Below are positions 59,297-64,000 of a DNA stretch of 64,000 nt, piece by piece; position 1 is the stretch's first letter, and every line of letters begins with the position of its first letter. Position numbers and translations under genes: made by a program. Source of the DNA: Clostridium sp. BNL1100 (lineage in GTDB: Bacteria > Bacillota > Clostridia > Acetivibrionales > DSM-1351); the NCBI RefSeq assembly GCF_000244875.1, contig NC_016791.1:4283001-4347000 (forward strand). Direction: 5' to 3'. The notes under the pieces were generated by a model. That model searched no databases. It worked only from the letters and a program-made list of their open reading frames with translations, and was not told the DNA's origin.

Positions 59297-62185
59297 TTAT
59301 TTTTCACAGACTGCTATCATGTTGTATGCCGTTCTCTTTATTCCTTTTTCCACCTTATAATTCTCTACTGAGTAAAATTCTACCGAATCAAATACCTTGT
59401 TCAGTATTGTACTGAATTCTTCAAATTCATACTCTTTTATATGAAAAGGATTATGAACATTTCTTCTCATTGCCTTGTTTGGTGTAGATATAATGAATTT
59501 CCCCGATTTCTTCAAAACCCTGTATGCTTCTTCTACGTGCTTAACTGTCATATCAACTGTTAGATGTTCAAATACTTCAAATGAAACATACACATCAAAT
59601 TCCCCGGCATGATAAGGCAGGCAGGTAACATCCCCCGTATTCCAGTGTACGTTTGACTGTCTGTATGCCTGCTTTGCAAATCTTATATTATCATCTGCTA
59701 TATCTATTGCCTCTACACTGTTGCATACCTTTGATAAATATGCAGCGCCATAACCAAAGCCACACGGGGCTTCCAGTACCCTGCTTTCATTACTCATGAA
59801 GCCGGAAGCAAAGGTATATCTCTCGGCTATTTTAAGATACACATTCAATGGAAGAAATTGTGAAGCCGGTATCCCTCTTTCCCACATATAGGCAAGATAA
59901 TTCTGCTCTACCTCTGCCTTGATTTTCAGGTCTGATATAAAGCCAGCAATATTGTTCTTATATACAGCGTCTTTTTTTAAAATATTACTTGTTATTGATA
60001 GGATTTCATCAGAGTTTTTGCTGTTTTTAATCTGCTGGGGAAGTGCATACACTTTGTTGTACAAGTCATACCAAATATTATTTATAATTAACTTTTTATC
60101 CTGACTGTTATTTAAGATAAACTCTATTAATTCATATCTGTTAAATTTCTCCCTTTTTCCTATTATTACTTTGGCAGTAGTAAAATCAAAAGTGTCAAAA
60201 TTATTAGTCTCATAGGAGATAAACTCATTCATCTTGTCATGTATATATTCAAAGGTCGGATTATAATCCTTTTCAAGAAGCCTAAGAATATCCGCTTTCC
60301 CTGAAAATTTATGCCATAATTTTTGATTTTGTTTTATTTGCTTTTCAATCAGGGCAATTCGCTCTCTAATACTGTCCGTATCATATATTTCCTCCAGCTT
60401 AATACTTATTTTGCAAGGGTTTGTTTTCTTTTTTATAATAAGGAGCTTTTCTGTCAGTCCCATATTCTTAGTGCATGTCAGCTGTCTATCTTTTAGCATC
60501 AGGTACTCCCCTACAATATTCTTCTCATCGTTACTCAATTCACTGTCCTTAAAAATTTCAGGAAGGGTATTAAACAGTTGCATAGCTGCTTCTCCGCCTT
60601 TTCCCGCCAAATCCTTGTCAAATGGGTAATTCATAAAGTACGAAACCGGAAGCATTTCCACCAATTCCAAACCGTAAGCTTCTAAAATATTTTCTACGTA
60701 GTCCCTATCTCTTATTACCATATGAGGTGACTTGCTTTTTACCTGCAAAACACTTATTGGGTCAAGTATTATACAAAATCCGTTAGTGTCCAGATGAATT
60801 GAGATATTTTCCAATACTCTTTTATATCGTGTTTCATCTGTTAAATGAAGCAATACATCAGCAGCAAATATTAAATCATATTTTCCACTATAGTACGTTT
60901 GATCGCTTATATCACCATTTTTGAATAAATACCCCGGGTATGCTTTACTTAATTCCGAGACCGACTTTTCTGAAATGTCGACAGCTTTATATCCAGCCAC
61001 TTTATTATTATGGAAAAGTTTTGTGAAAATCCCGGTTCCGGGGCCTAGTTCTAAAACTCTTTTACTGTTCATATTATCAAATAATTTATTTACTATTGCA
61101 TCCAGCAAATTAATTCTGTTCTTGTAAAGAAATTGGTTATATATCTCACCTAATCCCATAAACCCTACACCTTCAATATCGAATTTTGAATTCAGTCTTT
61201 TAATCCAATAATTTTTATAATCGAAGCCTGTAATGTGTTTATTTCTGGCTGAAATATCCTCCAGCAACGATATTATGGATTTTAGCTGCATATCCAGTGA
61301 GTAATTATCAGCAACAAAATTTCTGTATTCATCAGAATCATATTCATTATCTTTAATTTTCAAAGTAGCCTCATTAACCGTATTCCACAAATATTTGTGA
61401 GGATAAATCTCTGATGCACCTACAAAATTGTGTATAACCGGCTTTATACCTTTAGCCATTGCCTGCATTACACTCATATTCTGCGATTCCAGTACGCTTG
61501 TGCACAATATGTAATTTTTATCCTCCAACCATTTATCCAGATTCTTTTGCCAACCTTCAAAGTAATAGTTTTTTTCTAATCCCAACTCAGTTACCATCTG
61601 TTTGAAATACAGTGAGTATCTGGGGTCTTGAAACTGACCTGCGATGTAAAAATTATATCGGTTATCACAGTCGTATAGTGCTTTAAAGACCTGCAAAAGC
61701 AACATTGGCCCTTTTTTGTAATTAATATATCCCGCATAGGCAACATTAAATCCTGAGTTTCTATTTGCAAAGTTGAACTGTGATAAGTCTACTCCGTTTG
61801 GTATTACTGTAGTAATTTTTTCATCTATTCCAAAAGTGTTAATTGCATATTTACGTATTGTTTCTGATACGAATATGAGACTGTCAACACAATCCCAATT
61901 AACCCTTGCCGGATAATTTGTAAATGCCTCATAGCTGTGCAGTCTGCAAATTATTTTTTTTTCTTTTGCAATATTAAGTCTAGTGGCATATACCAAAAGT
62001 TCATCACACCATTCAAACCAGCAAATATCAGCCCAGTTCATCCATTCTTCCAACTTTTCCATATGCAACATATTGATAGTTATTTTCTGAATGTCATAAT
62101 ACGCTGATAGTTTATTAGCTATATCCCCGATGAATTTGTCATCACCCTTTGAAAATAAAGCTAGTTTTATATTTTTGTCTCCCAT
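59297..62185 (-). CDS. Multidomain glycosyltransferase (GT4-like) with two SAM-methyltransferase domains
   Basis: This large soluble protein has about 962 aa. Residues ~1-315: a GT-B fold, GT4-like, with ICRLHSYEAF, TVIPNGVDLSQF, NVAYAGYINYKKGP and the donor-site region TSVLESQNMSVMQAMAKGIKPV. Residues ~320-535: a class I methyltransferase with RVLELGPGTGIFTKLF and FAADVLLHLTD. Residues ~540-775: a helical, charged region I cannot assign. Residues ~780-962: a second methyltransferase with VLEAPCGFGYGAAYLSKV, GDVTCLPYHAGEFDVY and FEVFEHL. The ATG at 62185 has TTGGGG upstream; 62200 does not. It is divergent from the collagen-like gene, which suggests that it glycosylates and methylates that product. 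Confidence 0.85.
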   Translation of the reverse strand: MGDKNIKLALFSKGDDKFIGDIANKLSAYYDIQKITINMLHMEKLEEWMNWADICWFEWCDELLVYATRLNIAKEKKIICRLHSYEAFTNYPARVNWDCVDSLIFVSETIRKYAINTFGIDEKITTVIPNGVDLSQFNFANRNSGFNVAYAGYINYKKGPMLLLQVFKALYDCDNRYNFYIAGQFQDPRYSLYFKQMVTELGLEKNYYFEGWQKNLDKWLEDKNYILCTSVLESQNMSVMQAMAKGIKPVIHNFVGASEIYPHKYLWNTVNEATLKIKDNEYDSDEYRNFVADNYSLDMQLKSIISLLEDISARNKHITGFDYKNYWIKRLNSKFDIEGVGFMGLGEIYNQFLYKNRINLLDAIVNKLFDNMNSKRVLELGPGTGIFTKLFHNNKVAGYKAVDISEKSVSELSKAYPGYLFKNGDISDQTYYSGKYDLIFAADVLLHLTDETRYKRVLENISIHLDTNGFCIILDPISVLQVKSKSPHMVIRDRDYVENILEAYGLELVEMLPVSYFMNYPFDKDLAGKGGEAAMQLFNTLPEIFKDSELSNDEKNIVGEYLMLKDRQLTCTKNMGLTEKLLIIKKKTNPCKISIKLEEIYDTDSIRERIALIEKQIKQNQKLWHKFSGKADILRLLEKDYNPTFEYIHDKMNEFISYETNNFDTFDFTTAKVIIGKREKFNRYELIEFILNNSQDKKLIINNIWYDLYNKVYALPQQIKNSKNSDEILSITSNILKKDAVYKNNIAGFISDLKIKAEVEQNYLAYMWERGIPASQFLPLNVYLKIAERYTFASGFMSNESRVLEAPCGFGYGAAYLSKVCNSVEAIDIADDNIRFAKQAYRQSNVHWNTGDVTCLPYHAGEFDVYVSFEVFEHLTVDMTVKHVEEAYRVLKKSGKFIISTPNKAMRRNVHNPFHIKEYEFEEFSTILNKVFDSVEFYSVENYKVEKGIKRTAYNMIAVCEK

Positions 62186-62303
62186 GATAACCCCAAGCAT
62201 AATAAATGTATCTGTTACTATTTATATGCTGCATATATGTTACACATAACGTCACTTTTTAATGTTTTTTGTTAACATAAGGAACAAATTGTGCTATACA
62301 CCC

Positions 62304-62325: not shown

Positions 62326-62380
62326 AAATATTTAGAGTATGTCTATCACCAAAAACTTTCAAGGAGGTGACAAATTAAAA

Positions 62381-64000
62381 ATGGCTACTAATATTATTAT
62401 AAATGGCGGTTTTGAAACAGGAACTTTTCCTCCCTGGAATTCGTTCAATGCAATAGTAACTTCCGCCTTCAGCCATTCAGGTACTTTTTCTGCTGAATTA
62501 CTTGATGGAGGTGTAACCTCAACTATTTATCAGATAATTGAAGCAGATTTTACTGAGCCTTACGAATTCTCCGCTTTCCTCGCAAAAGTAGGAGCATTGC
62601 CAAATCCACTTACTACTATTACAATAGCTTATTTTGATGCTAACTTTAATTATCTGGGACTTGGTCTCGTTATCAGTATTCCACCCGGTACCCTTCCTGA
62701 TGCTACGCTGAATAACTGGCAGGAATTCACGGGTACAACTACGCCTGCACCGGCTGGAACCGTGTATGCGATTGTATCTATAAGTAAGCAGGCCGAACCA
62801 AATACAGCTAATGTAGTTGTTGATGATGTATCTTTGACATCATCATCCGGACCTACTGGACCTACCGGACCTACTGGACCGACTGGACCGACCGGGCCTA
62901 CTGGGGCAACTGGAGCTACTGGTGCTACTGGCGCTACTGGAGCTACTGGCGCTACTGGAGCCACTGGCGCTACTGGTGCTACTGGAGCCACTGGAGCAAC
63001 TGGCGCTACTGGCGTAACGGGTGCCACCGGAGCTACTGGCGCTACTGGTGCTACTGGCGCAACTGGCGCTACTGGGGCAACTGGAGCTACTGGTGCTACT
63101 GGAGCAACTGGTGCTACTGGTGCAACTGGCGCAACTGGAGCCACCGGAGCAACTGGAGCAACTGGCGCTACTGGAGCCACCGGAGCAACTGGAGCCACTG
63201 GGGCAACTGGAGCTACTGGTGCTACTGGAGCAACTGGTGCTACTGGTGCAACTGGCACAACTGGAGCCACCGGAGCAACTGGAGCAACTGGCGCTACTGG
63301 AGCCACCGGAGCAACTGGAGCCACTGGCGCTACTGGGGCTACTGGCGCTACTGGTGCTACCGGAGCAACCGGAGCCACCGGAGCCACTGGCGCAACTGGC
63401 GCAACTGGCGCAACTGGCGCTACTGGCGCTACTGGCGCTACTGGCGCTACTGGCGTAACGGGTGCCACCGGAGCTACTGGTGCTACCGGAGCTACTGGCG
63501 TAACCGGAGCCACTGGTGCTACCGGAGCCACTGGTGCTACCGGAGCCACTGGAGCTACTGGCGCTACTGGGGCAACTGGAGCCACCGGAGCAACCGGAGC
63601 AACCGGAGCTACTGGCGCTACTGGCCCAACTGGAGCTACTGGCGTAACGGGTGCCACCGGAGCTACTGGCGCTACTGGTGCTACCGGAGCTACTGGCGCT
63701 ACTGGCGCAACTGGCGCAACTGGCGCAACTGGCGCAACTGGTGCAACTGGAGCAACCGGAGCAACCGGAGCCACTGGCGCTACTGGTGCTACTGGAGCAA
63801 CTGGAGCTACTGGCGCAACTGGCGCAACTGGAGCAACTGGCGCTACTGGAGCCACTGGAGCCACCGGAGCTACTGGTACTACTGGTGCTACTGGCGCAAC
63901 CGGAGCCACTGGTGCCACTGGTGCAACCGGGGCTACCGGCGCTACCGGCGCTACTGGCGTAACGGGTGCAACCGGAGCAACTGGTGCTACTGGTACAACC
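62381..64000 (+). CDS. Collagen-like Gly-X-Thr repeat protein, 3' end outside the window
   Basis: The ATG at 62381 is 10 bases after a perfect AAGGAGGTGA. The frame is open for all 540 codons to the window end. Residues 1-156 form a jelly-roll-like head starting [18 protein letters not shown] and ending [12 protein letters not shown], similar to CBM4/9 folds and to preface domains of tripeptide-repeat proteins. From residue 157, 128 uninterrupted Gly-X-Thr triplets follow: first six GPT, then almost all GAT with a few GVT, GTT and one more GPT. There is no signal peptide. A Thr in every triplet provides dense O-glycosylation sites, as in the spore hair protein BclA. The gene is divergent from a glycosyltransferase/methyltransferase gene. 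Confidence 0.9.
63074..63325 (+). repeat. Tandem 126-bp duplication inside the collagen-like repeat
   Basis: The segments 63074-63199 and 63200-63325 are each 14 triplets (126 bp) and differ at one base: GCA at 63131 versus ACA at 63257, changing Ala to Thr. Flanking triplets use many more synonymous variants, so this is a recent unit duplication. Confidence 0.85.

Follow-up and report, generated by a model that had tools for sequence, protein, structure and literature searches.

A candidate glycosylation locus for a putative spore-surface collagen-like protein in Clostridium sp. BNL1100

We asked what a protein that joins a glycosyltransferase to two methyltransferase domains does beside a gene for a collagen-like protein built of Gly-X-Thr triplets. 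The two genes diverge at the end of a 64,000-nucleotide stretch of DNA from Clostridium sp. BNL1100, a relative of clostridia that digest cellulose (the window: NC_016791.1, positions 4,283,001 to 4,347,000, or G000:C1:4283001-4347000, of a complete genome of 4,613,747 bp; G and L numbers are our handles for genomes and loci). The original prediction, made from the window, took the pair to build and cap a glycan with enzymes fused on one chain. The glycosylation neighbourhood stood, while the notion that the fused protein builds the whole glycan gave way to the finding of an SgtA-like gene, for a candidate initiating enzyme, downstream. We consider it probable that the locus is a dedicated glycosylation system for a spore-surface collagen-like protein, in which the SgtA-like enzyme would initiate the glycan and the fused protein, hereafter GT4-MT1-MT2 (GT, glycosyltransferase; MT, methyltransferase), would extend and methylate it. 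The three genes are the following.

62381..64000, plus strand, running 600 bp beyond the window: collagen-like protein with an NTTRR-F1 head and Gly-X-Thr repeats (ribosome-binding site, domain profiles, genome DNA)
Genome C1:4347732-4348820 (L009:7732-8820), outside the window, starting 131 bp past the collagen gene: SgtA-like GT2-TPR gene, 362 aa (PF00535 plus tetratricopeptide repeats, TPR)
59297..62185, minus strand: GT4-MT1-linker-MT2 protein, 962 aa, predicted to extend and methylate a glycan (open reading frame, Pfam, homologues beside NTTRR-F1/Gly-X-Thr genes)

The list of open reading frames opens the collagen-like frame at 62339; the ribosome-binding site favours the ATG at 62381, and with this start the predicted 195 bp between the starts of the divergent genes were borne out. 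Followed to its end in the genome (C1:4345381-4347600, L009:5381-7600), the gene encodes 739 aa, laid out as a head (aa 1-156), triplets (aa 157-609) and a C-terminal domain of about 130 aa. Thr is third in 150 of 151 consecutive Gly-X-Y triplets (GAT 129, GPT 12, GVT 6, GTT 3, GPA 1), and 128 uninterrupted triplets are legible within the window, in agreement with the predicted minimum of 128. The original prediction had also asked for the contig to be extended, and doing so revealed both the C-terminus and a further glycan gene, the SgtA-like one. The repeats matched PF01391 with 225 bits, and the head, lying ahead of them, matched NCBIfam NTTRR-F1 (NF033675) with 205 bits against a cut-off of 70. 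A separate head had been correctly foreseen, but not its nature: the proposed carbohydrate binding was abandoned, CBM_4_9 being the only such match and falling below its cut-off (E 0.0035). BclA-type spore glycoproteins have a C-terminal trimerising domain resembling tumour necrosis factor (TNF) or C1q. When a seven-sequence profile of the C-terminal domain was compared with solved structures, five chains were returned up to E 1, all of them TNFSF18, with a best E of 0.087; this TNF-family match is not significant and is at best suggestive. By Pfam, the 739-aa gene is the sole clear collagen-type gene of the window genome, a second match at genome position 1664446 having been discarded because its frame spans 67 aa and contains a stop. 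Among relatives, G018 (L097:9990-20000 plus L098:1-7323, a single-contig genome) has a collagen-like frame of 5,777 aa, within an open frame of 5,791 aa, that holds about 1,827 triplets, 1,783 of them ending in Thr, and adjoins GT4-MT1 and SgtA-like genes. At L119 and L120, SgtA-like genes (about 50% identity) adjoin collagen-like proteins with another head (MSQPSFP...), so that the genus has two collagen families.

The downstream gene, which is followed by a terminator-like hairpin, was compared with SgtA of C. difficile, a protein of 358 aa with GT and TPR parts whose gene adjoins bclA3 and which puts beta-O-linked N-acetylglucosamine (GlcNAc) on Thr of BclA3 repeat peptides (PMC7157674; this and the other papers cited were consulted in part, and our statements refer to those parts). 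Its protein is of the SgtA type in size (about 360 aa), in the order GT then TPR and in adjoining a collagen-like gene, as judged against the description in PMC7157674 and not against the SgtA sequence. Of 11 genomes searched in the genus, 9 have a gene of this kind, in each case beside a collagen-like gene or fragment; SgtA-like genes also lie near collagen genes in L132, L157, L170 and L171. The best solved-structure match was GmaR (E 5.4e-25), with SunS next, and we take both to be peptide or protein glycosyltransferases. Conceivably, the fused GT4-MT1-MT2 starts the glycan by itself and the SgtA-like gene is unrelated, as GT4-MT1-MT2 is the glycosylation gene that lies inside the window and it shares the upstream region of the collagen gene. 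However, the recurring company of collagen genes, the two structural matches and the demonstration that SgtA starts the glycan in C. difficile (PMC7157674) all speak against this possibility, which we hold to be very improbable. On our analysis it is most likely the SgtA-like protein, and not GT4-MT1-MT2, that starts the glycan, and because the SgtA-like gene lies directly downstream, GT4-MT1-MT2 more likely extends and methylates than initiates. BclA3 glycans are reported to reach beyond the first GlcNAc, and the SgtA group reported that none of the other glycosyltransferases it assayed extended the glycan, its study not identifying the extending enzymes (PMC7157674); the present locus is a concrete candidate for this step, in relatives that are not known as pathogens.

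A role at the spore surface had been proposed from the presence in the window of spoIIID (15345-15620; PF12116, TIGR02844) and ytaF (51396-52019; TIGR02840). Proximity proved a poor argument, as these genes are not adjacent to the pair (spoIIID is about 44 kb away); the role itself stood, through a sigma-K-type promoter in front of the collagen gene.

62284..62310, plus strand: collagen-gene promoter of the sigma-K-like kind; counting the preceding base, AACA-N16-CATA-N3-TG, one mismatch from mACm-N16-CATA-N3-TA
62318..62344, plus strand: inverted repeat in the untranslated leader (AGCATAC...GTATGTCT), recurring in relatives' NTTRR leaders as AGCATRY...RYATGCT, just past the sigma-K-type site

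The site reads AACA-N16-CATA-TAC-TG, the sigma-K consensus being a/cACa/c-N16-CATA-N3-TA (PMC5749712), and C. difficile bclA1-3 are under sigma-K control, with AC at -35 (PMC3789822). We scanned with the strict pattern and with a loose one, AC-N16-18-CATA-N3-T, built on the sigma-K consensus after the window's upstream DNA had been inspected; six-frame open frames of at least 200 aa, not curated genes, served as background. In a first scan a sigma-K pattern preceded 18 of 20 NTTRR genes and 24 of 263 background frames. In a wider set of 24 NTTRR genes from the order with at least 120 nt upstream, the strict pattern preceded 11 (shuffle mean 0.28; background 9/261) and the loose pattern 22 (shuffle mean 2.32; background 24/261), the two misses being L101 and L093, where the frame leaves the contig and repeats precede the head. 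Outside the order set, a loose site was found before 9 of 13 NTTRR genes, namely those of L132, L210 and L212, both in L170, both in L171 and one of the pair in each of L173 and L211; none was found before the NTTRR genes of L175 and L185, nor before three Gly-X-Thr genes without an NTTRR head in L157 and L191. The collagen gene is thus apparently expressed late in sporulation, and a spore-surface role of its product, as far as the promoter sequence can tell, is well supported. The inverted repeat may form a 5' hairpin or act as a dyad for protein binding. Most NTTRR leaders fold, and shifting the repeat partner by 1 to 3 columns cuts pairing to 17-50%; a proven 5' mRNA hairpin was nevertheless rejected, since pairing reached 80.8% against 79.5% in shuffles and covariation thus gave no support.

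The open reading frame and its Pfam domains confirmed the predicted protein of about 962 aa with one glycosyltransferase and two methyltransferases, which an in-frame ATG at 62200 would lengthen to 967 aa. Its parts are as follows.

61196..62185, minus strand: GT4-type glycosyltransferase module, aa 1-330 (Pfam; retained in all homologues at such loci)
60566..61180, minus strand: MT1, S-adenosylmethionine (SAM)-dependent methyltransferase domain, aa 336-540 (Pfam match aa 356-510; missing in G020 and in GT4-only homologues)
59846..60565, minus strand: linker of about 240 aa, aa 541-780 (no family match; helices are predicted, followed by a small region rich in beta structure)
59300..59845, minus strand: MT2, SAM-dependent methyltransferase domain, aa 781-962 (Pfam match about aa 801-908; missing in GT4-MT1 homologues)

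Within the GT4 module, Glyco_transf_4 matched aa 73-135 and Glycos_transf_1 aa 147-264, the latter with 47.8 bits against a cut-off of 26.4. EX7E is a motif of GT4-type glycosyltransferases; in the window protein the second acidic residue is Gln (ESQNMSVMQ), and EX7Q is found across its clade. As EX7Q is also present in some flagellin-linked relatives, we rejected it as a signature of collagen-linked GT4. PF08241, PF13649 and PF13489 each matched two stretches of the 962-aa protein above cut-off, and the segments LELGPGxGIF in MT1 and VLEAPCGFGYGAAY in MT2, presumably SAM-binding, are conserved across full-length homologues. An AlphaFold model of middling quality (mean predicted local distance difference test score, pLDDT, 60.4; predicted template modelling score, pTM, 0.37) gave as best Foldseek matches tandem plant methyltransferases, single methyltransferases and GT-B enzymes such as HepE, MshA and BshA, which agree with the domain reading of the model and are silent on substrates. 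The methyltransferase superfamily matches leave the acceptor unspecified, and the two domains are gained and lost between close species, which would suit a role in modifying protein side chains, or as non-catalytic scaffolds, in place of sugar methylation. We consider this rather improbable: the domains share a chain with a sugar transferase, each keeps its SAM-site segment in full-length homologues, and sugar methylation has already been proposed for the flagellin GT2 of C. difficile (PMC5207246).

Co-location in relatives, which the original prediction had named among its checks, was examined in 58 genomes of the order, searched for NTTRR-F1 with its cut-off, for GT4 and for SgtA-like proteins. 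The GT4 domain was present in 14 (a fifteenth, G015, matches MT2 alone), NTTRR-F1 above cut-off in 13 (any match at E 0.001 in 17) and SgtA-like proteins of at least 69% identity in 12 (any match at E 1e-30 in 22). All 13 genomes with NTTRR-F1 above cut-off carry GT4, and in 12 of them an NTTRR-F1 or Gly-X-Thr gene lies within about 1.3 kb of it, the contigs of G023 and G025 stopping within or just past the NTTRR head; in the one exception, G036, GT4 is found at flagellins instead. G017, of the same genus, gave no match to GT4, NTTRR-F1 or SgtA in the genome search. Co-location therefore holds within the order and is not universal, as GT4 and NTTRR-F1 also occur apart.

A tree of 84 GT4 domains (L166 and L178 excluded as too short) placed the window GT4 in a clade of 14 members with support 99/99, 13 of them collagen-linked and L138 the exception. 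Four labels (L128, L129, L137 and L133) were set to collagen by hand where the gene was obscured by a contig end or by breaks in the repeats; in L129/G023 and L137/G025 the contig covers no more than the NTTRR head, whole or in part. Within the clade the pair is divergent in Ruminiclostridium and on the same strand in L131 and L132. L132 is Anaerovirgula multivorans, of another family (Natronincolaceae), and carries GT4-MT1-MT2, a collagen protein with Thr closing 198 of 198 triplets, and an SgtA-like gene (75% identity), all three on one strand in an order unlike that of the window. Twelve domains from Bacillus, Cohnella, Paenibacillus and Alicyclobacillus form a separate group (bootstrap 99; Shimodaira-Hasegawa-like approximate likelihood ratio test, SH-aLRT, 68), 7 of them collagen-linked, and in the three collagen-linked loci examined there (L170, L173, L191) GT4 is fused to a GT2; in Halobacillus L157 it is fused to an FkbM methyltransferase. 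The cargo of GT4 beside a collagen gene also varies closer to the window: MT1 and MT2 are both present in G000, G021, G022, G023 and L132, MT1 only in G018, G024, G040 and G055, MT2 only in G020, and neither in G016, G019 and G025, in which no further match to MT1 or MT2 parts was found at E 1e-20. Because its nearest relatives carry both domains, G020 probably lost MT1. The collagen label switches at least seven times across well-supported branches, with contig ends explaining some of the changes, and GT4 has therefore probably been recruited to collagen and to flagellin loci more than once. It is possible, and we suggest it tentatively, that the GT4 core is a plug-in station to which different lineages attach, at protein-glycan loci, either methyltransferase domain or the two together, a GT2, an FkbM methyltransferase or nothing at all, so that domain swapping would alter what the spore-surface glycan is made of, and that such stations were recruited more than once to spore-collagen and flagellin. 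As some species naturally carry the GT4 core with a single methyltransferase domain or with neither, a comparison of their spores could link domain to glycan; among named species, Ruminiclostridium hungatei and R. cellobioparum have GT4 alone and R. sufflavum has GT4-MT1.

A number of observations weigh against a dedicated system for the collagen-like protein. Common descent accounts for much of the co-location, ten of the 13 linked genomes being of a single genus. Among 391 genomes sampled across the class, GT4 (at E 1e-40) was found in 14, NTTRR-F1 in 10 (9 above cut-off) and both in 7, all of which lie in the window's own order. NTTRR-F1 was lacking in the other 7 of the 14 GT4 genomes (G053 and six of one other family), and GT4 was lacking in G209, G229 (NTTRR-F1 below cut-off) and G260; in nine genomes outside the order (six GT4-only, three NTTRR-F1-only) the pair was absent from the stretches fetched. 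In G260 (L211) an SgtA-like gene (73%) adjoins NTTRR-F1 genes with no GT4, apparently a case of initiation without the extension enzyme. No clear sigma-K site was seen upstream of the GT4 genes (loose pattern, 2/12) or the SgtA-like genes (5/27), and a sigma-K or sigma-E promoter for either was rejected for want of a convincing conserved site. Inspected by eye, the surroundings of the window locus showed no recognisable donor-sugar gene, and FnlA was unmatched across the window genome in a search without a positive control. The likeness to C. difficile rests on published descriptions and not on sequence alignment. Finally, in a contig scan of named genomes that confirmed 123 loci, a flagellin lay within 7 kb of GT4 in at least 20 of the best 80, exceeding the 16 with an NTTRR-F1 or Gly-X-Thr gene within that distance (four labels by hand), and the GT4-MT1-MT2 of G053 adjoins a Pfam-confirmed flagellin in a genome without NTTRR-F1. 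Taken together with the missing NTTRR-F1 partners, these flagellin neighbours would suit an enzyme that acts on another target, be it flagellin or a cell-wall or secreted polysaccharide, and is a mere neighbour of the collagen gene. We hold this to be unlikely for the window protein, however, since 13 of the 14 members of its own clade stand beside NTTRR-F1/Gly-X-Thr genes in differing gene orders, and since the pair lies, in the window genome, between tryptophan genes and the SgtA-like gene, with no flagellar gene recognised by eye around it. Two side observations concern these loci: one NTTRR-F1 gene of L211 has about 356 Gly-X-Thr motifs, and the G053 protein (L092:7010-12214; 1,734 aa) has an SgtA-like N-terminal part (29% identity) fused to GT4-MT1-MT2, which by its sequence would place several steps on one chain.

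Donor-sugar genes were seen in the surroundings of relatives, profile tests of these families being confined to the L097 and L103 copies. Neighbours include a nucleotide-sugar dehydrogenase in L103 and a GDP-mannose dehydratase in L098 (both above cut-off), FnlA-like (below cut-off) and WecB-type (above cut-off) genes in L097 and, at Pfam level, a DegT aminotransferase in L108. In the flanks of L097, L095, L093 and L099 and of L091, L103, L105 and L106, FnlA/WecB/RmlD-type genes lie near GT4-MT1 loci and a nucleotide-sugar dehydrogenase adjoins GT4-only loci and that of G023. The methyltransferase cargo may track the donor sugar. Dehydrogenase and DegT matches of the window genome are located elsewhere, and their surroundings suggest no link. 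Elsewhere in the window, a cobalamin riboswitch (43106-43289, minus strand) precedes an operon for ATP-binding cassette (ABC) uptake whose genes were named by eye, and a T-box leader (19848-20052, minus strand) precedes serS (TIGR00414).

Under the reading that we prefer, a dedicated system for the collagen-like protein, the mother cell would make the NTTRR-F1/Gly-X-Thr protein late in sporulation via sigma-K, and the protein would trimerise into spore-surface filaments as BclA does. By analogy with SgtA, the SgtA-like enzyme would add the first sugar, probably GlcNAc, to the Thr of the triplets. The GT4 domain would then add the next sugar and the two SAM methyltransferase domains would methylate that sugar and perhaps also an adjacent position or sugar, such that extension and capping would take place on one chain. 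The anatomy, the conserved linkage, the presence or absence of the methyltransferases and the conserved sigma-K-type promoter sequence are results; the order of the enzymes, the donor, the methyl acceptor and the filaments are what we infer. NTTRR-F1, the sigma-K-type site, the SgtA-like gene and GT4 together give a sequence handle for such spore coats across Bacillota.

The BclA glycan of B. anthracis is made by separate enzymes, and we know of no GT4-MT-MT fusion in that species. BclA resembles the glycoprotein proposed here in being a collagen-like spore protein with a glycan that ends in a methylated sugar, 2-O-methyl anthrose on rhamnose (PMC6222408). The BclA3-SgtA pair of C. difficile shares a collagen-like protein with Thr triplets, a neighbouring GT-plus-TPR enzyme of similar size and a sigma-K-type promoter (PMC7157674, PMC3789822); in contrast, the present locus has an NTTRR-F1 head, the SgtA-like gene follows the collagen gene instead of preceding it, and next to the collagen gene stands one for a GT4-MT-MT protein, the candidate extending enzyme. 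The type B flagellin GT2 of C. difficile, CDR20291_0242 (PF00535 plus PF08241), likewise has glycosyltransferase and methyltransferase on one chain and is proposed to attach rhamnose once a first GlcNAc is in place and to methylate it, but it is PF00535 and not GT4-type, has one methyltransferase and has flagellin as its target (PMC5207246). The GT4-GT2 loci of Bacillus, Cohnella and Paenibacillus (L170, L173 and L191) and the GT4-FkbM locus of Halobacillus (L157) have the GT4 core with SgtA-like and NTTRR-F1/Gly-X-Thr neighbours in common with the window, and differ in carrying another second enzyme and in lying outside its GT4 clade. The part of PMC13188886 consulted makes no mention of sgtA or a methyltransferase, and titles and abstracts of the literature searched, mostly non-subscription, held no description of a GT4-MT-MT protein with an NTTRR-F1 protein. 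The original prediction had regarded the fused arrangement as undescribed; because a fused glycosyltransferase-methyltransferase has a proposed precedent in the C. difficile flagellin GT2 (PMC5207246), the novelty of the locus is confined to the GT4-MT-MT arrangement with a collagen partner and to the swapping of its parts.

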